DNA of 64,000 bases, from contig VMTA01000011.1 of NCBI GenBank assembly GCA_013791855.1, positions 1-64,000 on the forward strand, read 5' to 3'. Below the pieces are notes generated by a model. The model was not told where the DNA came from, searched no databases, and saw only the letters and a program-made list of their open reading frames with translations. The translations under genes and the position numbers were made by a program. Shown here piece by piece: positions 2,226 through 52,196 of this stretch; position 1 is the stretch's first letter, and each line of letters begins with the position of its first letter. This DNA is from Sideroxydans sp. (GTDB taxonomy: Bacteria; Pseudomonadota; Gammaproteobacteria; Burkholderiales; Gallionellaceae).

Positions 2226-2377
2226 ATAATCAGGAGCGCACTTCTGTTACCGGCTATCAAGTGACAAATAGGGCTTTGCTATGACAGAAGATCGTCTACC
2301 TTAGCGATTATTTTGGCAACCAAATGATAGGAACAGCCCCACCCAGCCGGAATAATCTAAAACAGTAATTTTTTTAA

Positions 2378-3088
2378 TTACGTACCTTCTGGCTCAGTTA
2401 GGGCAGAATCGATCAAGGCGCACATCCTCCCTAGTCCATATATTTCAGCAGACTTCTCTAAATACAGAGTTTCATAATCCAGTGCATCAACAATCTTGTA
2501 GGTGTCTTTTTCTTTTTTTCTATAACTCTTCTTTACAGCACTTAAGACCTTATTTATTTCACTAGCTGGGTGGGGAATTAATTCAACTTGAATCGTTGAT
2601 AAGTCATATCCCAAAATCTCACTAACTTTTCCTAAAGTTAGTTGCGAATCAATGAGGCTAAAAAAGTTTGGGGCAGCCATAAACCATGCTTCCGTTTCCT
2701 GGACTGCTATAACAACCTCGATATTTCCCCCCCATAGATCTTCAAGGAGTTTATCTGCCGCTGCATTTTTATCCGCACTTACTTTTTTTACGTTGGAACC
2801 CGTGTACTGATCTCGTAATCCAAAAATATTTTGGAACCCTTTAGACTTGAAGTTCTCAGCATTTTCATCAACGTATGAACGCACCTTCTCATCATTTCCA
2901 ACATCAATAATTCTTATAATAAAGTCAGCTTCAGCCGGCTTCCCTCGCTCCCTTACCTTAATTAACGAATCACCTCGGTATTCTTCACTTACAACATGAA
3001 GTTGCAAGGTGACTGCAAGATGCTCAATAAACCTCTCAATGAATATTCTTTCCGTTTGCCCTTCCACTACAAAGAATGATTTCTTCAT
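2378..3088 (-). CDS. TOPRIM-like / DUF4276- or DUF4435-type protein, partner of AAA ATPase
   Basis: MKKSFFVVEGQTERIFIERF, IIDVGND, AVQETEAWFMA motifs; starts 3 nt after the stop of the ATPase gene. Confidence 0.65.
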   Translation of the reverse strand: MKKSFFVVEGQTERIFIERFIEHLAVTLQLHVVSEEYRGDSLIKVRERGKPAEADFIIRIIDVGNDEKVRSYVDENAENFKSKGFQNIFGLRDQYTGSNVKKVSADKNAAADKLLEDLWGGNIEVVIAVQETEAWFMAAPNFFSLIDSQLTLGKVSEILGYDLSTIQVELIPHPASEINKVLSAVKKSYRKKEKDTYKIVDALDYETLYLEKSAEIYGLGRMCALIDSALTEPEGT

Positions 3089-3091
3089 TTT

Positions 3092-4255
3092 TCATTCTTT
3101 GCTCTTTTTTAAGAAAAATTTCTTAGCGAAGAAATCAAAGTTATTTCCTCCGTACTCCTCAAAATCTTCAAAAGCATCTGGGACATTCCTTGGGTTAAAA
3201 GTGCTGACTATCCCTTTTTCACGGTTAATAACACACCAATATTTTAGTGGCACTTTATTCATTACGAAGCGGTCATTAGTTGTCATCACAAGCTGAAAGC
3301 TACCTTGTTCTGCGATATCAATCAGAATAGAAATGAGCTTAGTAGACCTCTCGTAATCCAATCCTTCCCCCACGTCATCAACCAAAATAAATGGAGATTT
3401 TTTGCTTAAGAAGTTAAATCTGAACTGTGCCAAAATCACAAATGCGCAATACATTCCATGTGAAATGGCATTCTGCATAAGAGGTTTGGCAACACCCTTT
3501 TCTTTCAAAAAGATTGCTTCTGGTTGCTTTGGCGTACCGAAATTTATTGGTACTGGGCTGGGTATATTAGTTACACCAAAATCATTAATTTCATAACCAA
3601 TCTCCTTCATGTCCTCAATAATTGACTTCTTGAAGGCTACAGCGAAATTTGTCAGCGCATACTTTACTAGCGCAACTACATCTCGACCGAATTGAAACTG
3701 TTCAGTTGCAGCGCCTGATACCTCTCCACCCCCAATGGAAATTGCGTTTTCACTATTATCAGCAAATCTATAATACTGAAAAGTCTGAGCCCACCCATGT
3801 AGCAGTTCCAAATATCCGTGTTGGATATTGTCGCGTCTGCTAGCAACAGCAAGGCTATTCTCCGGTATCTGAACCTGTACCTTTTCGTCCAACTTTTCAA
3901 AGTACATCTCTCCCGAGCTGTACTTGTTTGAGTTGCTGCTAAGTTTTAATTTTTCCACATCATTAATAGTTAGCCTCTCAATTTTGACTTTCCTATGTTC
4001 AATTTCAAGCTCATAAGTAATTCGCGAATTATTCTCATCGTCAACAAACGTGGCTTCATAGTAAGTTGAGTCGAAATTGGGGCGCGTCTTTCCTGTAATG
4101 AGGCCAGCGAGCCCATTAAGGACTCGTGTCGTCCGAGTTTTTCCTGCTGCATTTTTCCCAACAATTAAGTTGATATTTGTAAGAGATAGATCAGAAATTG
4201 CCCATTCTGCTGGCGTGCCAGCAAATTCTGAGTATTTGAGTGATGCGAGCCGCAT
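3092..4255 (-). CDS. AAA-family (AAA_15/OLD-like) ATPase, putative defence protein
   Basis: Walker A VGKNAAGKTRT; late ABC/SMC-type Walker B LVDDVGEGLD; TTNDRFVMNK. Confidence 0.75.
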   Translation of the reverse strand: MRLASLKYSEFAGTPAEWAISDLSLTNINLIVGKNAAGKTRTTRVLNGLAGLITGKTRPNFDSTYYEATFVDDENNSRITYELEIEHRKVKIERLTINDVEKLKLSSNSNKYSSGEMYFEKLDEKVQVQIPENSLAVASRRDNIQHGYLELLHGWAQTFQYYRFADNSENAISIGGGEVSGAATEQFQFGRDVVALVKYALTNFAVAFKKSIIEDMKEIGYEINDFGVTNIPSPVPINFGTPKQPEAIFLKEKGVAKPLMQNAISHGMYCAFVILAQFRFNFLSKKSPFILVDDVGEGLDYERSTKLISILIDIAEQGSFQLVMTTNDRFVMNKVPLKYWCVINREKGIVSTFNPRNVPDAFEDFEEYGGNNFDFFAKKFFLKKSKE

Positions 4256-4299
4256 GGCTATTTTTCCTGACAGTGAATATTCGACAAATACTAGCAGTA

Positions 4300-4320
4300 T
4301 TGTCTTTATAGTAAAGACAA
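4300..4320. promoter_or_regulatory. Perfect palindrome TTGTCTTTA-TAG-TAAAGACAA upstream of the AAA/TOPRIM cassette; putative operator
   Basis: 9-bp perfect arms, 3-nt spacer, 45 bp upstream of the ATPase start; extended -10-like TGCTAGTAT next to it on - strand. Confidence 0.45.
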
Positions 4321-4485
4321 AATACCCAAATCAATGGGCTAGGACTGATATATTTATTTGCGAGAAGATGCACGGGGCGTGCCTTCCATTGTGACATTCC
4401 AGAGTCAAGGTGAGCACATTAGCTATGAGTTACAAGCCGTCCTACCACTTAACAACAACTTCAGCATCGATTCACGCTTGACGCC

Positions 4486-4524
4486 AGAACGAACGTTCTT
4501 TACAGTACGAAGAACGTTCGTTCT
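4486..4524 (+). promoter_or_regulatory. Putative SOS/LexA operator: AGAACGAACGTTCT ... AGAACGTTCGTTCT upstream of umuD
   Basis: Perfect 14-nt inverted repeat, each arm with GAACGTTC core, ending 13 bp before the umuD ATG. Confidence 0.55.
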
Positions 4525-4537
4525 GTAAGAGATAGCC

Positions 4538-6543: not shown

Positions 6544-6606
6544 TTACGTTCAGCCATTCCTTGCTTTCAACATCTTGACGGGGTACGCCATTGGCGTATA
6601 TTGACC

Positions 6607-6918
6607 ATGCTTTTCATTGAAACGCCAACCTTCACGCGACTGATCGATGCGCTACTGGATGTTGATGAATATGCCAAGTTGCAGGAAGAACTGCTCAAAC
6701 GCCCGGATGCAGGAGACCTCATCAAAAACGGCGGCGGTATCCGCAAGTTGCGATGGAAACGGGCGGGTAGCGGCAAGAGCGGCGGTATTCGGGTGATCTA
6801 TTACTGGATCACCGAAGACGAACAGATATTGATGTTGCTGGCTTACCCCAAAAACGCAAAAGACAATCTGACCAATCAGGAAACTGCATTGCTGCGGAAA
6901 CTGGTCAAGGAGCTGTAA
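6607..6918 (+). CDS. RelE/HigB-type toxin
   Basis: 103 aa; KLRWKRAGSGKSGGIRVIYYW... LLAYPKNAKDNLT RelE-like signature; followed immediately by HTH antitoxin. Confidence 0.8.
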   Translation: MLFIETPTFTRLIDALLDVDEYAKLQEELLKRPDAGDLIKNGGGIRKLRWKRAGSGKSGGIRVIYYWITEDEQILMLLAYPKNAKDNLTNQETALLRKLVKEL

Positions 6919-6920
6919 AA

Positions 6921-7211
6921 ATGGACAAGACACTTTTTGAAGATTTGAAACAAAGCCTGCATGAAGCTGCCGCCATTCGGCGTGGCAAGACTGCACCGGG
7001 CCGCGTCACAGAAATACAACCTCCCGATGCCAAAGCGATACGCGCAAAGGTCGGCTTGAGCCAGACCGAGTTCGCCCAACTGATAGGCGTGAAAGTCGCC
7101 ACACTGAGAAACTGGGAACAGAACCGCCGCCAACCAACCGGAGCTGCCGCCGCATTACTGACCATCGTGGAGAAAGAACCGGATGCAGCGCTACGAGCAT
7201 TACATGCTTAG
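6921..7211 (+). CDS. XRE/HigA (NadS)-type antitoxin
   Basis: IRAKVGLSQTEFAQLIGVKVATLRNWEQNRRQPTGAAAALL helix-turn-helix; 2 nt after the toxin stop. Confidence 0.85.
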   Translation: MDKTLFEDLKQSLHEAAAIRRGKTAPGRVTEIQPPDAKAIRAKVGLSQTEFAQLIGVKVATLRNWEQNRRQPTGAAAALLTIVEKEPDAALRALHA

Positions 7212-44361: not shown

Positions 44362-45204
44362 TCAATCAATAGCCACGATTCCCTTGCATTTCGGGTAATC
44401 GGAACAACCCCAAAACATATTCCCCGCATTCGCGCCTTGCTTTGCTGTTCGTTTAACCATGCTACTGCCGCACTTTGGGCAAGCCGGGTTTGATGGAATT
44501 GCTGCTGCAGGTGTGTATGTTGCCCGCGGTGCAGTCGAGCGAACTGTGCTGATGATTTTCTTTAGTTCAGTGCCATCGACTAGCTCGATATTGCAGCTGG
44601 CGGCAAAGTTGATCGCATCGTTTGAAAACACACCAGACGTCACCACGAACCCCTGTGCCGCACCTGCAACCGCCATCACGCCATTTAATTCCCGTATAAC
44701 TGAGACACCAACATTGCGAGCCTTCCACTGCTTACATTGAACAAGTGATTTCACACCATTCTTATGCAATACCAGATCGACGCCGCCATCCGCACCACCG
44801 CCTCCGGTTTCAATCACCGAATAACCTCCGCGACGAAATGCTTCACCCACCAGCATTTCGAATTCACGCCAAGACATGCCGTTCAATACAGAAGCGTCCG
44901 AACCTTCCTGAACATCCTCCAACAACCTTGCACGTTTTTGCTGCCCATAAGCTGAAACGCCCGCACCAATGATGAAAGCGAGAGGGAGCAGGTACTGCCC
45001 AAATGTCGCAAGCGCTTTGCCAAGTTGGCCACTCACGTTAGCACCAAGTTGAGCGGCAGAAGTGGGATGCACAATCTCGGCAGTCGCGTAGTGATGAAGG
45101 ACAAAGTAGGCGATCAAAGCGAGCAGCACACCTACCCACCAAGGCAACATGGCCGCAAGATCGATCAAATCTTCAAATGCACTTTGCTTTCTTTTTCGAG
45201 CCAT
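44362..45204 (-). CDS. Membrane-anchored Mrr-like restriction endonuclease with C-terminal topoisomerase-type zinc ribbon
   Basis: 2 TM segments; WREFEMLVGEAFRRGGYSVIETGGGGADGGVDLVLHKNGVKSLVQCKQWK; CPKCGSSMVKR...GCSDYPKCKG. Confidence 0.9.
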   Translation of the reverse strand: MARKRKQSAFEDLIDLAAMLPWWVGVLLALIAYFVLHHYATAEIVHPTSAAQLGANVSGQLGKALATFGQYLLPLAFIIGAGVSAYGQQKRARLLEDVQEGSDASVLNGMSWREFEMLVGEAFRRGGYSVIETGGGGADGGVDLVLHKNGVKSLVQCKQWKARNVGVSVIRELNGVMAVAGAAQGFVVTSGVFSNDAINFAASCNIELVDGTELKKIISTVRSTAPRATYTPAAAIPSNPACPKCGSSMVKRTAKQGANAGNMFWGCSDYPKCKGIVAID

Positions 45205-45271
45205 ATTTATCCCTGATCGTTAGACACCAAGCACGAATGAAATCCCGACACATTATTGATGTGCAGCTCGC

Positions 45272-47599
45272 CTACATGCCCTGATACAAATAGCGCTGCA
45301 ACCCAGCAAACAAATTGCGGATCGCGTTAATGTCGCCGCCCAGATCGGCGACCGCATCGGGGATCGAGTCGTGATATTTCAACCGCAACAGCTTGGTGAG
45401 TTTCTCTTGCTCCAGCTCATCCACACCTTCCTGCACGTAATGCGCCAGAACGAAATCAAGGAACACTTGCTGCTTGTCGCTGAATTTGGCGTGCACGGCT
45501 TTGTGCGCCACCTCCGCACGATCTATTCGACTGACCGGCTGCATCGCAAACGCCACATGCGCCAACACATCGAACAGGTCGCTATTCTCGGCGTCGATGA
45601 TCTTCTGCATCTCGCCGAGCTGATCCTTACCAAAGCCTTTCTCCGCCAATCCATCAAGCAGCTTCTTGCGCGTATCCGGCAAACTCCAGAGCTCGCGCAA
45701 CTCGTCCTCGTCCTTGAAGAATTCCGGCAACTGACCAAACAACACCGTCAGAAACTCCGTTGCCGAGATCGGCTTGCCATCCGGCCCCCAGAATGTCGTT
45801 ACCGAAATATGCTGAATGGTGCGCTCTTTGCCGTCGCGCAGCTTCACTCGCACTTTCTTCTTCACTTCGTATTCAGGGCGCGGCTGCTTTGCGTCAGGCT
45901 GCGGCCTCGGTTCAATAGGCGGAAAAACCTTATCGCCGCCATTGCCTACCTCGGTCGGTTCGCCGTCCCATTCCGGATCGTTGAATAACTTGTGTGCCTT
46001 CACAAAATCATAAATCGTGAAGTAATCCTTGCCGTCATACAGCCGCGTACCGCGCCCGATGATCTGCTTGAACTCAATCATCGAATTGATCGGACGCATC
46101 AGCACGATGTTGCGTACGTTGCGCGCATCCACGCCGGTGGAAAGTTTCTGCGAGGTGGTGAGGATGGTCGGGATGCTCTTCTCGTTGTCCTGGAAGTCGC
46201 GCAGGTATTGCTCGCCCAGCGCGCCGTCGTTCGCCGTCACTCGCACGCAATACAGCGGATCGGTGCTGACTGTCTTCAGTTGATTGATCAGGTCGCGCAC
46301 CAGCAGCGCGTGCGCCTGATTGGCGCAGAACACCAGCGTCTTCTCGCGCTGGTTGATGGACTCCATAAACAGTTTCACGCGGTACTGCTCGCGCTCCACG
46401 ATCTCGATGCTGCGGTTGAAATCCTTTTCCTCATACAGCTTGCCCGCCTCGATCTCGCCCTCGACCAGCCTGTCGTCCGAGGTAAAGCGGTATTCATCCA
46501 GCGTGGTGGCGTACTGCTTCACACGGAACGGTGTGAGGTAGCCGTCGTTAATGCCTTCCTTCAGCGAATACACATACACCGGCTCGCCGAAGTAGGCATA
46601 GGTGTCTGCGTTGTCCTTGCGCTTCGGCGTTGCCGTCAGGCCGAGCTGCACCGCAGGCGCGAAGTAATCGAGGATGCTACGCCAGGTACTTTCGTCATTC
46701 GCCCCGCCACGGTGGCATTCGTCGATGATAATGAAATCGAAGAAGTCCGGCGGGTACTCACCAAAATAGGGGGAAGGCTTGCCATCCTTCGGCGGACCCG
46801 ACAGGAATGTCTGAAAGATGGTGAAGAACACACTGCCATTCTTAGGCACGCGCCCCTTCTTGCGTATGTCATCCGGCGCGATGCGCACCAGTGCATCTTC
46901 GGGGAAAGCAGAGAATGAGTTGTAGGCCTGATCGGCCAGAATGTTACGGTCGGCAAGGAACAGGATGCGCGGCTGACGCGCGCCATCACGGCTGAGGTTC
47001 CAGCGTGACTTGAACAACTTCCACGCCAACTGAAATGCGATGAAGGTCTTGCCCGTGCCCGTCGCCAGCGTCAGCAGAATGCGCTGCTGGTTATCGGCAA
47101 TCGCTTCCAGCACATTGTTGACCGCGCTGTCCTGGTAGTAGCGCGAACCCCACATGCCGCCTTTGTCCTCGAACGGCACAGCGGCAAAACGCTCGCGCCA
47201 GTCGTTCGCCTCGGCAAAGGTCAGGTTCCACAATTCCTGCGGCAAAGGATAGGCATTGATTTCGCCCTCCACCCCGCTCTGCATATCCACACCGTAGATG
47301 CGCATGCCGTTGGTGGCGTAGGTAAAGCGCGCACCGATCTTGCCCGCATACTGCTTGGCCTGCGCCAGCCCCTCGGTATAAGGCAGGTCGCGCCGCTTCG
47401 CCTCCACCACAGCCAGCTTGTGGTTGCGATACACCAGCACATAGTCCGCAATTTCTGGTTTCGACCGCTGCCCCGCACCCTGCAAGCGTCCCTCGGTGAT
47501 GCGGTATTCGCGCATCACCCGGCTACCCTCCAACACGCCCCAGCCTGCGGCTTTCAGCGCGGGGTCGATGTGATCTGCGCGGGTTTCGGCTTCGTTCAT
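45272..47599 (-). CDS. hsdR: Type I restriction enzyme R subunit
   Basis: LTLATGTGKTFIAFQLAW; IIDECHRGG; LGLTATPKRKDN; IIGRGTRLYDGKDYFTIYDF. Confidence 0.95.
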   Translation of the reverse strand: MNEAETRADHIDPALKAAGWGVLEGSRVMREYRITEGRLQGAGQRSKPEIADYVLVYRNHKLAVVEAKRRDLPYTEGLAQAKQYAGKIGARFTYATNGMRIYGVDMQSGVEGEINAYPLPQELWNLTFAEANDWRERFAAVPFEDKGGMWGSRYYQDSAVNNVLEAIADNQQRILLTLATGTGKTFIAFQLAWKLFKSRWNLSRDGARQPRILFLADRNILADQAYNSFSAFPEDALVRIAPDDIRKKGRVPKNGSVFFTIFQTFLSGPPKDGKPSPYFGEYPPDFFDFIIIDECHRGGANDESTWRSILDYFAPAVQLGLTATPKRKDNADTYAYFGEPVYVYSLKEGINDGYLTPFRVKQYATTLDEYRFTSDDRLVEGEIEAGKLYEEKDFNRSIEIVEREQYRVKLFMESINQREKTLVFCANQAHALLVRDLINQLKTVSTDPLYCVRVTANDGALGEQYLRDFQDNEKSIPTILTTSQKLSTGVDARNVRNIVLMRPINSMIEFKQIIGRGTRLYDGKDYFTIYDFVKAHKLFNDPEWDGEPTEVGNGGDKVFPPIEPRPQPDAKQPRPEYEVKKKVRVKLRDGKERTIQHISVTTFWGPDGKPISATEFLTVLFGQLPEFFKDEDELRELWSLPDTRKKLLDGLAEKGFGKDQLGEMQKIIDAENSDLFDVLAHVAFAMQPVSRIDRAEVAHKAVHAKFSDKQQVFLDFVLAHYVQEGVDELEQEKLTKLLRLKYHDSIPDAVADLGGDINAIRNLFAGLQRYLYQGM

Positions 47600-47646
47600 T
47601 TAGGCAATATGAGTCAAGTGTGGGTCAAGATATTCGTCAAGCGAGC

Positions 47647-48126
47647 CTAACGAAAGACCGCACCGGAAGCCCTGATGTACTCGATGAAATTGATGCAAGA
47701 GACAGCAACCGTTGGCATCACGCACACTGCGGGAATTTTTCTATTTGAAGGTAGTTTAGGTAGGTTCGGCTGCTTCGCTTCATCTGAAACCAGTTCCGCC
47801 TTGTGCAAGCGCGCTGTAGCGACGATCAGAATGTCGTTCTCACCAACGCCAGTTGTGTATTTGTCATTGGCAATTCCCAGCAGGCCTTTAATACGTTTGG
47901 CTTCATGCGCGATAGCATGGTTGATTTCCAACTGTTCTAGATTGTTTTCTTTCAGCCATTCGCCACAATCTGGTGTCTTGTGATTTACCTCTTCAAAAGC
48001 CACACTCGGCATCAGCAGTTGCTTCGATTCAATTTGACCCGCCATCCATTCCCACAAACCTGGAAACTGCTCTATCGGATAGTTATCCCAAGCATAGATC
48101 ATGGACGACGCATCAAACACCCGCAT
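47647..48126 (-). CDS. PIN-like DUF4411 protein
   Basis: MRVFDASSMIYAWDNYPIEQFPGLWEWMA; GENDILIVATARLHKAELVSDE acidic PIN positions; overlaps the ImmA-like gene. Confidence 0.8.
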   Translation of the reverse strand: MRVFDASSMIYAWDNYPIEQFPGLWEWMAGQIESKQLLMPSVAFEEVNHKTPDCGEWLKENNLEQLEINHAIAHEAKRIKGLLGIANDKYTTGVGENDILIVATARLHKAELVSDEAKQPNLPKLPSNRKIPAVCVMPTVAVSCINFIEYIRASGAVFR

Positions 48127-49261
48127 AGTAGCGCTCCAACTGGTGCAAATCTTTGATCGTCAGGTTATCGAGATAACCACTGGCTTTGGCTAAAGTAATG
48201 TGGCGTGCATACAAAGAATCCAGCACGGCGCGCACAAAGGTGTCTCCAAAAATATGCATAGGCTCCCTATTGCGATACTTCCGACTGCCACGACCTTCCT
48301 CAACAATGGGAACTTGGCGACACCAGTGCCGATAAGCCTCATATCGACTCTGTGGCAAACGCCCCGCATCCAGCAAACGGCGCAAAATCATTTCCCCGCT
48401 CACGCCCCATGCCTTGCGCTGCTGCCCAAGCCAGTGGTCGTATTGAGATACATCGTCGGGGCGCTCGGCATCATTAATCCCAGTCAGGAAAGAATCCGGC
48501 ACCAGCAGATACCCGGCAAACGCATTGGCCTCACGCTCATGCCCGCGATGGGATTCCATATCCCGCTCGTCATCAATAGAGCTGGTCTTGTGCAACAGCA
48601 AATGCCCCAGTTCGTGCATGAGCGTGAAAGACTGTCGGGTATCCCAGTCCTGCTTTTTAACGACGATTACCGGACAGCTCTCGTCGTAGAGAGAGAAACC
48701 AAGAATGGGATTGTTCTTGGCGATCTGCCACTTCCCGGCATAGCCGTTACTGCGGAATACCAGCACGCCACGAGATTCCAACGCTTCGCGGTAAGTATCG
48801 AAACTATTCTGTTCGCCCAATCCCAGCCATTGCCGAGCAATGCGCGCAGACTCCTGCAAATCATCGGTTGGCAACACTGGCGGCGTAAAGCGAGGACGAT
48901 CCGCATCATCGAGGTCTTCGCGCAAACTCAAATACACCTCGCGCTGTTTCTCTACACGCTCGATCAGCGTCTTGAGGTTGGCGGACAGCTCCGGCTTCTG
49001 ATTTGCCAGCGTACGGAATTGCGGGGAATGCACCTGCGCCTCATCCACCGGCCCGTCTTCAAGGAAGAACAGCACACCCCTGCCGAAATGGTCAGCCACC
49101 TTGCGCAGCTGATTGAACGTCATGCCATCCTTGCCCGCCATGACATGCTCCATCGTAGTCGCAGCAATGCCTGTTTCAGCCGCAAGCTGATCCGGCGTAA
49201 TGCCGAGATCGGCACAACACCAAGCAATGCGGTCAGGATTGATAGACTGGATACGTTCCAT
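48113..49261 (-). CDS. XRE HTH + ImmA/IrrE metallopeptidase-domain protein
   Basis: N-term ADLGITPDQLAAETGIAATTMEHVMAGKDGMTFNQL HTH; HELGHLLLH zinc motif; start at MERIQS (ORF track starts further upstream). Confidence 0.85.
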   Translation of the reverse strand: MERIQSINPDRIAWCCADLGITPDQLAAETGIAATTMEHVMAGKDGMTFNQLRKVADHFGRGVLFFLEDGPVDEAQVHSPQFRTLANQKPELSANLKTLIERVEKQREVYLSLREDLDDADRPRFTPPVLPTDDLQESARIARQWLGLGEQNSFDTYREALESRGVLVFRSNGYAGKWQIAKNNPILGFSLYDESCPVIVVKKQDWDTRQSFTLMHELGHLLLHKTSSIDDERDMESHRGHEREANAFAGYLLVPDSFLTGINDAERPDDVSQYDHWLGQQRKAWGVSGEMILRRLLDAGRLPQSRYEAYRHWCRQVPIVEEGRGSRKYRNREPMHIFGDTFVRAVLDSLYARHITLAKASGYLDNLTIKDLHQLERYYAGV

Positions 49262-49320
49262 GCGGGGCATTATATCTGAGCGAGTTATCCACCGCCCAAT
49301 GGGCATAAATGAGGTTTATT

Positions 49321-49347
49321 CAACTGGTGACGCCATGTCACCAGTTG
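49321..49347. repeat. Inverted repeat CAACTGGTGAC-GCCAT-GTCACCAGTTG
   Basis: Perfect 11-bp arms upstream of XRE-ImmA gene. Confidence 0.9.
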
Positions 49348-49371
49348 GGTGAAGTGTCGGTCGATGGCGCG

Positions 49372-49448
49372 GACATGTTTAAAAAACGGGATTTTCTTAT
49401 CACGTCGCAGGCGACATGTTCAAAAAATGGCGATTTCTTATCACATCG
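49372..49448. repeat. Two imperfect 36-nt direct repeats (gacatgttYaaaaaaYgg...tttcttatcacRtcg)
   Basis: 49372-49407 and 49413-49448, 41-bp period. Confidence 0.85.
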
Positions 49449-49457
49449 TTCATAGCC

Positions 49458-49484
49458 CAACTGGTAACAGCTTGATACCAGTTG
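49458..49484. repeat. Inverted repeat CAACTGGTA-ACAGCTTGA-TACCAGTTG
   Basis: Perfect 9-bp arms sharing CAACTGGT with 49321-49347. Confidence 0.9.
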
Positions 49485-49485
49485 C

Positions 49486-49510
49486 AGTCGGTTACAAAAC
49501 GTAACCGACT
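49486..49510. repeat. Inverted repeat AGTCGGTTAC-AAAAC-GTAACCGACT at hsdS 3' end
   Basis: Perfect 10-bp arms abutting the hsdS stop codon. Confidence 0.9.
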
Positions 49511-50724
49511 CACAACGCCCCGCTGAACGCCTGATGCAGCAGCGACTTCTTCAGCTCATCGAGGGCGGCGAGCTTGCGCTGGTAGAGGGATTCGAGGCGT
49601 TGGGTTTCTTCGCGGAGGGTGTCGGTTGCTTTGACAATAGCCGCCTGAACCTCAATCGGCGGAAGCACCACTGGCAGTTCCTGAATAAGGCCCATATTCA
49701 ACCCAGCCATGATTGCGCCTTTGGCATGCTTGGCCAAGAACGCCTGTGACTGGGGCGCGTGAAGAAAGTAGATATGGAGATAACTTGGCAAACACTGCTT
49801 CCTGTCTAGCGTGATGCAGCAAATGTGCTTCGTGTTAATTGAAGTCGGGATGTCATTCGGAACTATCGCGCAGCGGCCACACGTGCCCATGATAGTAATC
49901 AACACATCACCAGGATGCACGGTGTACCGCTCAAGTTGGCGATACTTTTCTGGCGTGATGAACCTGCTCTTTCCCCAGCGAAACTCATTGGCGACGGCGT
50001 TATCGATACCGAGAACTGCGATGCCCTCATCAACGAACTCACTGTGTAAAAGCTGACTACCGAAAGGGCCAGTGCGAATTGAGCCTTTGGTTGGCGCGGC
50101 AATCTCCTTCACTGACTTCTCCATCCACCCCTCGCCGCGCTGGGTAAAGACGGATTGCAGGTGGCTTTCGAACAGGGCGTGAGCGTTTTGCAGGTTCTGT
50201 TCGGCGTGGGCTTTGGCGGTGGCGATGCCGTAAAATGCTTCGTCGAGAATGCCGACGATGCGCTGCTGTTCGGGGAGTGGAGGGAGTGGAACTTGAAGAG
50301 ACTTAACAAAGGGAAGCTTTACGCCTTGAACCGTTGCTCCCGTACCTTCAGCCACGATCACATCAGCGATACTCTTCAACCACCAAAACAGAAAGCGAAC
50401 ATCAAGCTTCGTGGTGTCGTGCGGAACAATACCGCGCAAGTCTTGATTGATGGCGGTGTCTTGTCCAAGCAAGCAAACCTTCCCAAGCCCAACGCGAGTG
50501 GCAATTACAACATTGCCGCATGGAATAATATTTGTGGCACTGCTCTTTACCGCTTCCTTGGTGATCTTAAATTCGGTTGAGGTAATGACTTCCTGCTTGA
50601 GGTCACGGACAGTTGCCCAAGAAATGTCACCGGAATAAAAAGCTGGCTTATCCTTTGATGGCGTACCTCCGCCGATAACATCGCAAACATCGCCGAGATT
50701 TTTTGTTTGCCACCCAGCTTTCAC
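49510..50724 (-). CDS. hsdS: Type I restriction-modification specificity subunit S
   Basis: Two TRDs each followed by LPPLPEQQRIVGILDE / LPPIEVQAAIVKATD conserved repeats. Confidence 0.93.
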   Translation of the reverse strand: MKAGWQTKNLGDVCDVIGGGTPSKDKPAFYSGDISWATVRDLKQEVITSTEFKITKEAVKSSATNIIPCGNVVIATRVGLGKVCLLGQDTAINQDLRGIVPHDTTKLDVRFLFWWLKSIADVIVAEGTGATVQGVKLPFVKSLQVPLPPLPEQQRIVGILDEAFYGIATAKAHAEQNLQNAHALFESHLQSVFTQRGEGWMEKSVKEIAAPTKGSIRTGPFGSQLLHSEFVDEGIAVLGIDNAVANEFRWGKSRFITPEKYRQLERYTVHPGDVLITIMGTCGRCAIVPNDIPTSINTKHICCITLDRKQCLPSYLHIYFLHAPQSQAFLAKHAKGAIMAGLNMGLIQELPVVLPPIEVQAAIVKATDTLREETQRLESLYQRKLAALDELKKSLLHQAFSGAL

Positions 50725-52196
50725 AGCAAGCCCCTGATATTCCCCAGCACTTCCGCACTCTCCGCATCTAGCGCGGCGATCTCGTCCATGATGTCCTGCG
50801 GACTGCGATGCACCACTGCCTCATTGCCATTAGGATTCTTCACCGACAGATCGAACGTCGCCGGATCGATGCTCGCCGCATCCACGCTCCAGCTCTTGGG
50901 CGAATCAGCAAAGGTTTTTTGCAGCGCGATGAATTCGGCGAGGTCGGCGTCGTTGAGCGGGTTGGTCTTGCCCAAATTCCGGGCCTGCCCTGAGCTTGTC
51001 GAAGGGGAGAGCTGGTAGTACCAGACTTTGCGCGTCGGTGCGCCTTTCTCGAAGAACAGCACGACGGTTTTCACGCCCGCACCCTGGAAAGTGCCGCCGG
51101 GGCAATCGAGCACGGTGTGCAGGTTGCAGCTTTCGAGCAGGTGTTTTCTTAAACTCACCGAGGCGTTGTCGGTGTTGCTGAGGAAGGTGTTTTTAATGAC
51201 CACCGCGCCGCGCCCGCCCGCTTTCAAAAACTTGATGAAGTGCTGCAAAAACAGGAAGGCGGTTTCGCCGGTCTTGATGGGGAAGTTTTGCTGCACTTCC
51301 TTGCGTTCCTTGCCGCCAAAAGGCGGGTTGGCGAGGACGATGTCGAAGCGGTCCTTGTCCTGCACGTCGGCGAGGTTGAGTGCGAGGGTGTTGGTGTGGG
51401 CGATGTTGGGCGCTTCGATGCCATGCAGGATCATGTTCATGATCGCGATGACGTAGGCGAGGCTTTTCTTTTCGATGCCGTAGAAGGTGGCTTCTTGCAG
51501 GGTCTTGAGGTCGCGCGTGGTGAGGTGGGGTTTGGCACGCAGATAATCGAACGCTTCGCACAAGAAGCCCGCGCTGCCGCAGGCGCCGTCGTAAATGGTT
51601 TCGCCGATTTTGGGATTGACCACTTGCACCATGGCGCGAATCAGCGGGCGCGGGGTGTAGTACTCGCCGCCGTTGCGCCCGGCGTTGCCCATGTTTTTGA
51701 TCTTGGCTTCGTACAGGTGTGAGAGTTCGTGCTTTTCCACTTGCGAGCCGAAGCGCAGTTCGTCGATGTGGTCGATGATGTCGCGCAGGTTGTAGCCGCT
51801 CTGGATTTTGTTTTTAATCTCGCCGAAGATTTCGCCGATTTTGTATTCCAGCGTTTTAGCGTTGTCGGCCTTTTCCTTGAAGCGGTGCAGGTAAGGGAAC
51901 AGCGTCTGGTTGACGAAGTCGCGCAGGTCGTCGCCGGTCATGGCGGCGTTGTGGTCGATCTTGCCGTCCTTTCCTTTCGGTGCGGCCCATGTCTCCCAAC
52001 GGTAAGGCGGATCAATCAGCCAGGTGTATTTCTTCCCTTCCAGCTCAGCTTCCATCGCTTTGCTGTGTTCCAGCGCGTCGAGGTATTTGAGGAACAGCAG
52101 CCATGAGCTTTGTTCGGTGTAGTCCAGTTCGCTGGCGCAGCCAGCTTCTTTTCTGAGTACGTCGTCGATATTTCTGAAGGTTTGTTCAAACATCAA
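50721..52196 (-). CDS. hsdM: Type I restriction-modification DNA methyltransferase subunit M
   Basis: GEYYTPRPLIRAMVQVVNPKIGETIYDGACGSAGFL; VLANPPFGG; ATGA overlap with hsdS. Confidence 0.95.
   Translation of the reverse strand: MMFEQTFRNIDDVLRKEAGCASELDYTEQSSWLLFLKYLDALEHSKAMEAELEGKKYTWLIDPPYRWETWAAPKGKDGKIDHNAAMTGDDLRDFVNQTLFPYLHRFKEKADNAKTLEYKIGEIFGEIKNKIQSGYNLRDIIDHIDELRFGSQVEKHELSHLYEAKIKNMGNAGRNGGEYYTPRPLIRAMVQVVNPKIGETIYDGACGSAGFLCEAFDYLRAKPHLTTRDLKTLQEATFYGIEKKSLAYVIAIMNMILHGIEAPNIAHTNTLALNLADVQDKDRFDIVLANPPFGGKERKEVQQNFPIKTGETAFLFLQHFIKFLKAGGRGAVVIKNTFLSNTDNASVSLRKHLLESCNLHTVLDCPGGTFQGAGVKTVVLFFEKGAPTRKVWYYQLSPSTSSGQARNLGKTNPLNDADLAEFIALQKTFADSPKSWSVDAASIDPATFDLSVKNPNGNEAVVHRSPQDIMDEIAALDAESAEVLGNIRGLL
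50984..51008. repeat. Short palindromic repeat cctgccctgagcttgtcgaagggga inserted in-frame in hsdM
   Basis: Encodes SPSTSSGQA inside HsdM between WYYQL and RNLGKTNPL. Confidence 0.75.

Follow-up and report, generated by a model that had tools for sequence, protein, structure and literature searches.

The window analysed here is a stretch of 64,000 nucleotides of Sideroxydans sp. DNA (contig VMTA01000011.1). Two intact open reading frames, gene A followed by gene B with a gap of 3 nt, are located on the minus strand between window positions 4255 and 2378. They lie in an AT-rich insert, where a clear contrast is seen in the base composition: the GC content is 0.37–0.43 over positions 2251–4500, while it is about 0.57–0.65 outside. 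The features are as follows.

3092–4255, minus strand: gene A, 387 aa, ATG start, an ABC/AAA_21 ATPase (AbiLi/RloA-like), the upstream member of the pair.
2378–3088, minus strand: gene B, 236 aa, ATG start, a DUF4276/TOPRIM-like putative nuclease effector.
2263–4457, no strand: the AT-rich insert, delimited by the GC profile and by alignments to the congener flanks; the site is empty or otherwise filled in congeners.

The first-pass annotation of this DNA described an ATPase and TOPRIM-like cassette at 2378–4320 in an AT-rich island between draG and umuD. The island and its flanks were found as described, and the motifs cited for the two proteins (VGKNAAGKTRT, LVDDVGEGLD, FFVVEGQTERIFIERF, IIDVGND, and ETEAWFMA) are all present; the end of the pair, however, is at 4255 and not at 4320. 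On one side, the insert is flanked by the gene for a DraG-like ADP-ribosylglycohydrolase (PF03747, 3e-62), for which "draG" is a family-level name only. On the other side are umuD and umuC (Peptidase_S24 and impB/mucB/samB IMS polymerase in Pfam). Gene B is single-copy in the 2.55 Mb host genome.

The flank alignments to congeners place the borders of the insert at about 2226–2262 and about 4458, which corresponds to about 2.2 kb. The same two flanking genes align on both sides in the congeners, and the intervening content varies. In one congener (G028), about 20 bp separate the aligned flanks, and in another (G004) about 110 bp, so that the site is empty there. In three others, the interval carries different genes, whose names were read from the sequence: monooxygenase-like, B12-binding, and GGDEF protein genes in 2.7 kb (G032); a secreted protein gene and a HATPase/STAS-like protein gene in 2.3 kb (G033); and a GGDEF protein gene in 1.7 kb (G017). 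The congener loci (L136, L137, L139, L144, and L145) thus carry cargo between umuD and the DraG-like gene that differs by strain or is absent. No integrase, transposase, or flanking direct repeat was seen that would account for the insertion; the congener intervals are likewise free of integrase genes, and the window insert contains no mobility gene. Because the congener intervals are empty or filled with unrelated genes, this spot is a general insertion site and not a dedicated defence island. The cassette itself was probably acquired horizontally.

At the cassette, neither a promoter nor a terminator was found above the shuffled controls, and no RNA family was matched. Beside it, a perfect inverted repeat, CAGAACGAACGTTCTT-9 nt-AAGAACGTTCGTTCTG, is located at window positions 4485–4525, where it overlaps the promoter region of umuD, and it is kept in five congeners. 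This repeat possibly serves umuDC as an operator of the SOS/LexA type; the cassette is now located next to it in divergent orientation. Two further loci of the window may be mentioned here. One is at 6601–7211, just downstream of umuC, and contains the genes for a RelE-like toxin and an Xre/HigA-like antitoxin. Another is a type I restriction-modification system at 44362–52196 (HsdR, 45272–47599; HsdS, 49510–50724; HsdM, 50721–52196; positions read from the sequence), next to which are genes for an HTH/peptidase-like protein and for an Mrr-like nuclease.

Protein A matched the Pfam model AAA_21 with 29.3 bits, above the cut-off of 27. Its best match among the PADLOC models was AbiLi (PDLC02335, 2.2e-16), which is partial (residues 22–338 of the protein on positions 72–244 of the 326-position model), and AbiLi was also matched by all of the 80 A relatives. 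The AriA model PDLC02980 ranked second, followed by HEC-01A and others. The AriA match is probably generic and not specific to PARIS, the length of the model (304) being equal to that of Pfam AAA_21. The HEC-01A match (PDLC04175) covers most of the protein and is weaker than that of AbiLi (1.7e-8); the match to GajA is weak (2.4e-6), and weak similarity to RecF was also seen. In a Foldseek search with the AF2 model (pLDDT 91.9), the fold of A was placed with PtuA of the Septu and retron complexes, Rad50, and SMC heads (best, 3.6e-10). The nucleotide-binding motifs of A are the following.

4136–4159, minus strand: Walker A, GKNAAGKT, residues 33–40; G38 and K39 are invariant in 80/80 relatives.
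3446–3463, minus strand: ABC signature, SHGMYC, residues 265–270; the family consensus is SQGMFR, and C270 stands where 79/80 relatives have Arg.
3356–3388, minus strand: Walker B and D-loop, ILVDDVGEGLD, residues 290–300; Asp294 occupies the catalytic Glu position of the outgroup ATPases.

The position of residue 294, which is the catalytic Glu elsewhere in ABC ATPases, is thus Asp in 80/80 A relatives, a count that is partly ascertained, as one of the search patterns contained this Walker B motif; the "DD" is also present in seven relatives that were found via B or by profile (L002, L006, L007, L009, L010, L146, and L148). The window A lies on a long branch (1.13) of the A tree. This branch and the Cys in the signature motif suggest that the window copy may be divergent or weakened.

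The ATPases were also compared with those encoded near other TOPRIM-like genes. DUF4276 genes were sampled across the phylum, and the ATPases were read in the same loci of about 3.6 kb: among the 23 genes with a readable ATPase nearby, the Walker B was DEPELGLHP or DEPEVSLHP in 22 cases and DEIELSLHP in one. By hhalign, A aligned to the ATPases beside RloB-like proteins with E = 1.2e-24, as compared with 7e-10 and 1.4e-10 for the ATPases beside canonical DUF4276 proteins. With a two-sequence profile in each comparison, these values are only suggestive of A being nearer to the partners of RloB than to those of canonical DUF4276 proteins.

Protein B falls just short of the Pfam cut-off for DUF4276 (E = 8.8e-7; 29.8 bits, i.e., 0.4 bits under 30.2). 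DUF4276 was matched by 74 of its 79 relatives and OLD-like_TOPRIM by 33 (E ≤ 0.01). In PADLOC, B matched HEC-01B (2.9e-5), and 76/79 relatives matched the HEC-01B model PDLC04188. No match to DUF4435 was obtained for B at E ≤ 1 or for the 79 relatives at E ≤ 0.01. For AbiLii, B gave no PADLOC match at E ≤ 1, and only 5/79 relatives gave one (best, 0.0019); GajA was matched by 6/79 Bs. The AF2 model of B (pLDDT 91.1) has a strand/helix order compatible with a TOPRIM core, and its strands lead into E9, D93, and E131/E133. The fold search of the PDB with B gave no match below 1e-3; in BFVD (viral structures), the only match below this value was an RloB-like phage protein (5.5e-4, TM about 0.5). 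The sequence searches of the PDB with A and B gave nothing relevant; a match of the B profile to TNFAIP8 (0.005) was set aside, since it involves the C-terminal helices only. The putative active-site motifs of B are the following.

3050–3067, minus strand: TOPRIM motif 1, VEGQTE; E9 is conserved in 79/79 and E13 in 78/79 relatives, with the spacing of E377/D381 and E400/E404 in OLD enzymes (PMC7049728).
2804–2812, minus strand: TOPRIM motif 2, D93-Q-Y95; D93 is conserved in 79/79, and D-x-Y/F is also present in the readable canonical DUF4276 proteins.
2684–2698, minus strand: motif 3, E131-T-E133-A-W135; both Glu are conserved in 79/79, corresponding to S478-x-E480 and T506-x-E508 of OLD enzymes (PMC7049728), and the motif is aligned by hhalign with the RloB-type CFETWF.
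2516–2524, minus strand: Y189-x-K191, invariant in 79/79 and also present in two RloB-like outgroup proteins.

B carries E9, D93, E131, E133, and K191 in common with 79/79 relatives, and E13 with 78/79, in the two-metal pattern of the OLD type (roles by analogy; PMC7049728); K191 may correspond to the catalytic Lys/Arg found in OLD. The second Asp of the OLD-type DxD is the exception: the corresponding position, 95, is Y or F in 64/79 relatives. We dropped D-x-Y as a peculiarity of the window B family, since it is general in the sampled DUF4276 proteins. IIDVGND had been listed as an acidic motif in the first-pass annotation; the alignment and the predicted topology suggest instead that D93 (GLRDQY) occupies the "DxD" position.

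To examine the distribution of the pair, the B-based matches were used to build an alignment of A, with which, in addition to B, the genome and viral contigs were searched. In 89 of the 98 A-bearing loci, the profiles built from the relatives recovered the same two-gene cassette, with B directly downstream of A on the same strand and most commonly with a 4-nt overlap; several of the remaining loci without an adjacent B are contig ends. Together with the Pfam matches of A and B, this recovery puts the pair well outside chance expectation. The pairwise distances of A and B are correlated (r = 0.72, host phylogeny included), and none of 2000 Mantel permutations gave a value as high. A search of the genome contigs for close homologues with B alone gave 122 candidates, none of which was confirmed, and the annotated phage genomes gave no match to A or B.

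The pair is patchy in occurrence, being found in 5/100 near genomes and 4/398 genomes of the phylum-wide sample (the host's own genome counted in both). The A-bearing hosts belong to about a dozen phyla, e.g., Cyanobacteriota, Bacteroidota, Planctomycetota, Spirochaetota, Pseudomonadota, and Chloroflexota, and these phyla do not form single clades in the A tree. The window A does not cluster there with L048, the homologue from Gallionellaceae, whose gene is at another locus and next to an ABC-F gene. The simplest reading of this tree would be repeated horizontal transfer of the pair. A second, more typical A-B lineage is also found in the genus of the window (L009 and L010, in G025 and G027), at another locus beside an ABC-F (EttA-like) gene.

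Relatives of the pair were found on mobile elements. The closest relative pair (L002/L008, 41% identity in B) adjoins a P2-type bacteriophage gpA replication gene (PF05840, 9.9e-88). Others are on a conjugative Paraburkholderia plasmid, on a Bacteroides plasmid, and on viral contigs that also encode integrases, repressors, and tail proteins. P2 and P4 elements are known to carry PARIS hotspots (PMC9122126). The nearest neighbours of the genomic copies include genes of known or candidate defence systems, among them type I specificity subunits, MADS, BREX, Shango, PD-Lambda-2, and IetA; these are family tallies without a background rate, from which we claim no enrichment, and a type I restriction system is present among the 56 other window genes that served as the control. 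At the window site, a defence-island setting is weakly supported, the congener cargo there consisting mostly of signalling genes.

Based on these results, A and B probably form one horizontally acquired unit, in which A would gate the putative TOPRIM nuclease B and which would likely serve as an abortive-infection switch against phages. What the computation supports directly is the pairing and co-inheritance of A and B, their intact ATPase and metal-site residues, their predicted folds, and their mobility. The low score of B against HEC-01B (2.9e-5), its lack of a PDB fold match below 1e-3, the mainly signalling cargo at this site in congeners, and the Cys270 and long branch of the window A count against the reading. 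In PARIS, AriB is silenced by an AriA hexamer; the binding of a phage protein ends this inhibition, and AriB, as a free dimer, cleaves tRNA via a two-metal TOPRIM site (PMC12409363). AAA:TOPRIM_OLD pairs, in one of which the toxin is an RloB homologue (node D44), have been validated by toxicity neutralisation in E. coli (PMC10440598). By analogy with PARIS and with these pairs, A would hold B sequestered until infection sets it free. In the proposed sequence of events, A with ATP would probably form an oligomer in which B is bound and stays inactive. When A senses a signal that derives from the phage or is linked to infection, B would be released or activated, its two-metal active site would cut nucleic acid, and the infected cell would be stopped. 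The substrate is most likely RNA such as tRNA, as suggested by AriB and other AAA-paired TOPRIM toxins; DNA is also possible.

More tentatively, the cassette might represent a distinct, undescribed family of ATPase-gated TOPRIM defence systems that combines an ATPase of the RloA/AbiLi lineage, its catalytic Walker B Glu replaced by a fixed Asp, with a DUF4276 effector, and in which the ATPase would be a slow or locked, ATP-bound sensor and not a cycling motor. We regard this as somewhat less probable than not, and the fixed Asp offers a clear, testable prediction on the ATPase cycle.

The same gene pair could be a maintenance module of the toxin-antitoxin kind, in which B is a constitutively active toxin neutralised by A, the module is addictive or excludes competitors, and phage defence is incidental. 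That AAA:TOPRIM_OLD pairs act in E. coli as a toxin and an antitoxin that neutralises it (PMC10440598) is in line with this idea, as are the tight gene overlap and the copies on plasmids and prophage-like contigs. However, A, the candidate antitoxin, is a large protein encoded by the first gene, an arrangement shared with PARIS, in which the deletion of either gene is non-toxic (PMC9122126), and the window copy is chromosomal, located between ordinary chromosomal genes in an insert without a mobility gene. We consider such a module unlikely. Still less likely is a split nuclease similar to OLD or Gabija, in which A and B jointly form an active enzyme that degrades invading DNA without sacrifice of the host. 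OLD enzymes with an acid spacing like that of B cut DNA (PMC7049728), and the SMC/Rad50-type fold of A would fit this function; nevertheless, the GajA matches are weak (2.4e-6 for A, 6/79 for the Bs), a helicase partner is lacking, and the closest fold of B is RloB-like, from a family that AbiLii links to abortive infection. A housekeeping module for DNA repair or metabolism, unrelated to conflict and acquired with or beside the neighbouring genes, is highly improbable: it has in its favour the adjoining umuDC and the weak RecF-likeness of A, and against it the sporadic presence with the same site empty or otherwise filled in congeners, the atypical GC content, the copies in prophage and plasmid contexts, and the conserved nuclease-like metal site of B.

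For the gated-nuclease reading, the significance of the pair lies in the group to which it would belong. Bacterial immune systems built as ATPase-TOPRIM pairs form a large group with diverse mechanisms, and the tRNA-cleaving AriB demonstrates that their targets can be unexpected. The A-B family extends over many phyla with a complete putative metal site, and its mixed lineages allow one to ask which part sets the trigger and which the target. Our literature search, with preprints and most subscription papers outside its scope, found no paper on DUF4276, no described mechanism for DUF4276 pairs, and no description of an AbiL/RloB-type ATPase paired with a DUF4276 effector.

The first-pass annotation had proposed a related or divergent module of the PARIS, AbiL, and OLD world. 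The family, fold, active-site, and context evidence agrees with this proposal, except for membership in PARIS; the PADLOC and fold checks that it had recommended place A nearest to AbiLi, and B as DUF4276/HEC-01B-like and similar in fold to RloB. With PARIS, the cassette shares the two-gene arrangement of an ABC ATPase and a TOPRIM effector. A further hallmark of PARIS is its activation by anti-restriction proteins such as Ocr. PARIS is detected by an ATPase matching AAA_15 (at least 32 bits) or AAA_21 (at least 27 bits) together with the DUF4435 partner AriB (PMC9122126). A has the AAA_21 match (29.3 bits), and membership was rejected, since DUF4435 is absent from B and the 79 relatives. With OLD and GajA of Gabija, B shares the metal-site spacing (E-x3-E, D, [S/T/E]-x-E, and K/R). 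It differs in that the second Asp of DxD is Tyr, and the system differs in being two separate proteins, with no helicase partner and no full-length OLD-like match. The best solved-structure fold matches of A are to PtuA of Septu, in which, however, the effector is the HNH protein PtuB and not a TOPRIM-like DUF4276 protein.

The AbiL and RloA/RloB-type systems are similar in having two adjacent genes, for an ATPase and then a small TOPRIM-like effector. A matches the AbiLi-type ATPase (PDLC02335, 2.2e-16) and aligns with the RloB-neighbour ATPases, and the best viral fold match of B is RloB-like. The differences are that B is a DUF4276 protein and not RloB, falling by sequence outside the AbiLii/RloB effectors, and that the Walker B of A is DD-x-GEGLD, as compared with DE-x-EN-x-LG in the two outgroup ATPases read. 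Membership in AbiL was rejected on the basis of the effector. HEC-01, a PADLOC candidate system composed of an AAA ATPase and a DUF4276-like protein, has the same gene order. B itself matches HEC-01B only at 2.9e-5, and 76/79 of its relatives match PDLC04188; like DUF4276 proteins, B contains the motifs D-x-Y and E-x-E-A. The Walker B type of A is unlike the DEPE-x-x-LHP or DEIELSLHP found in the ATPases near the sampled DUF4276 genes, with which, and not with the HEC-01A models, this comparison was made. As judged from the sequences, the pair is HEC-01-like in its effector and has an ATPase of a different type; it is a variant of the ATPase-TOPRIM kind, in which a putative AbiL/RloB-type ATPase is combined with a DUF4276 effector.
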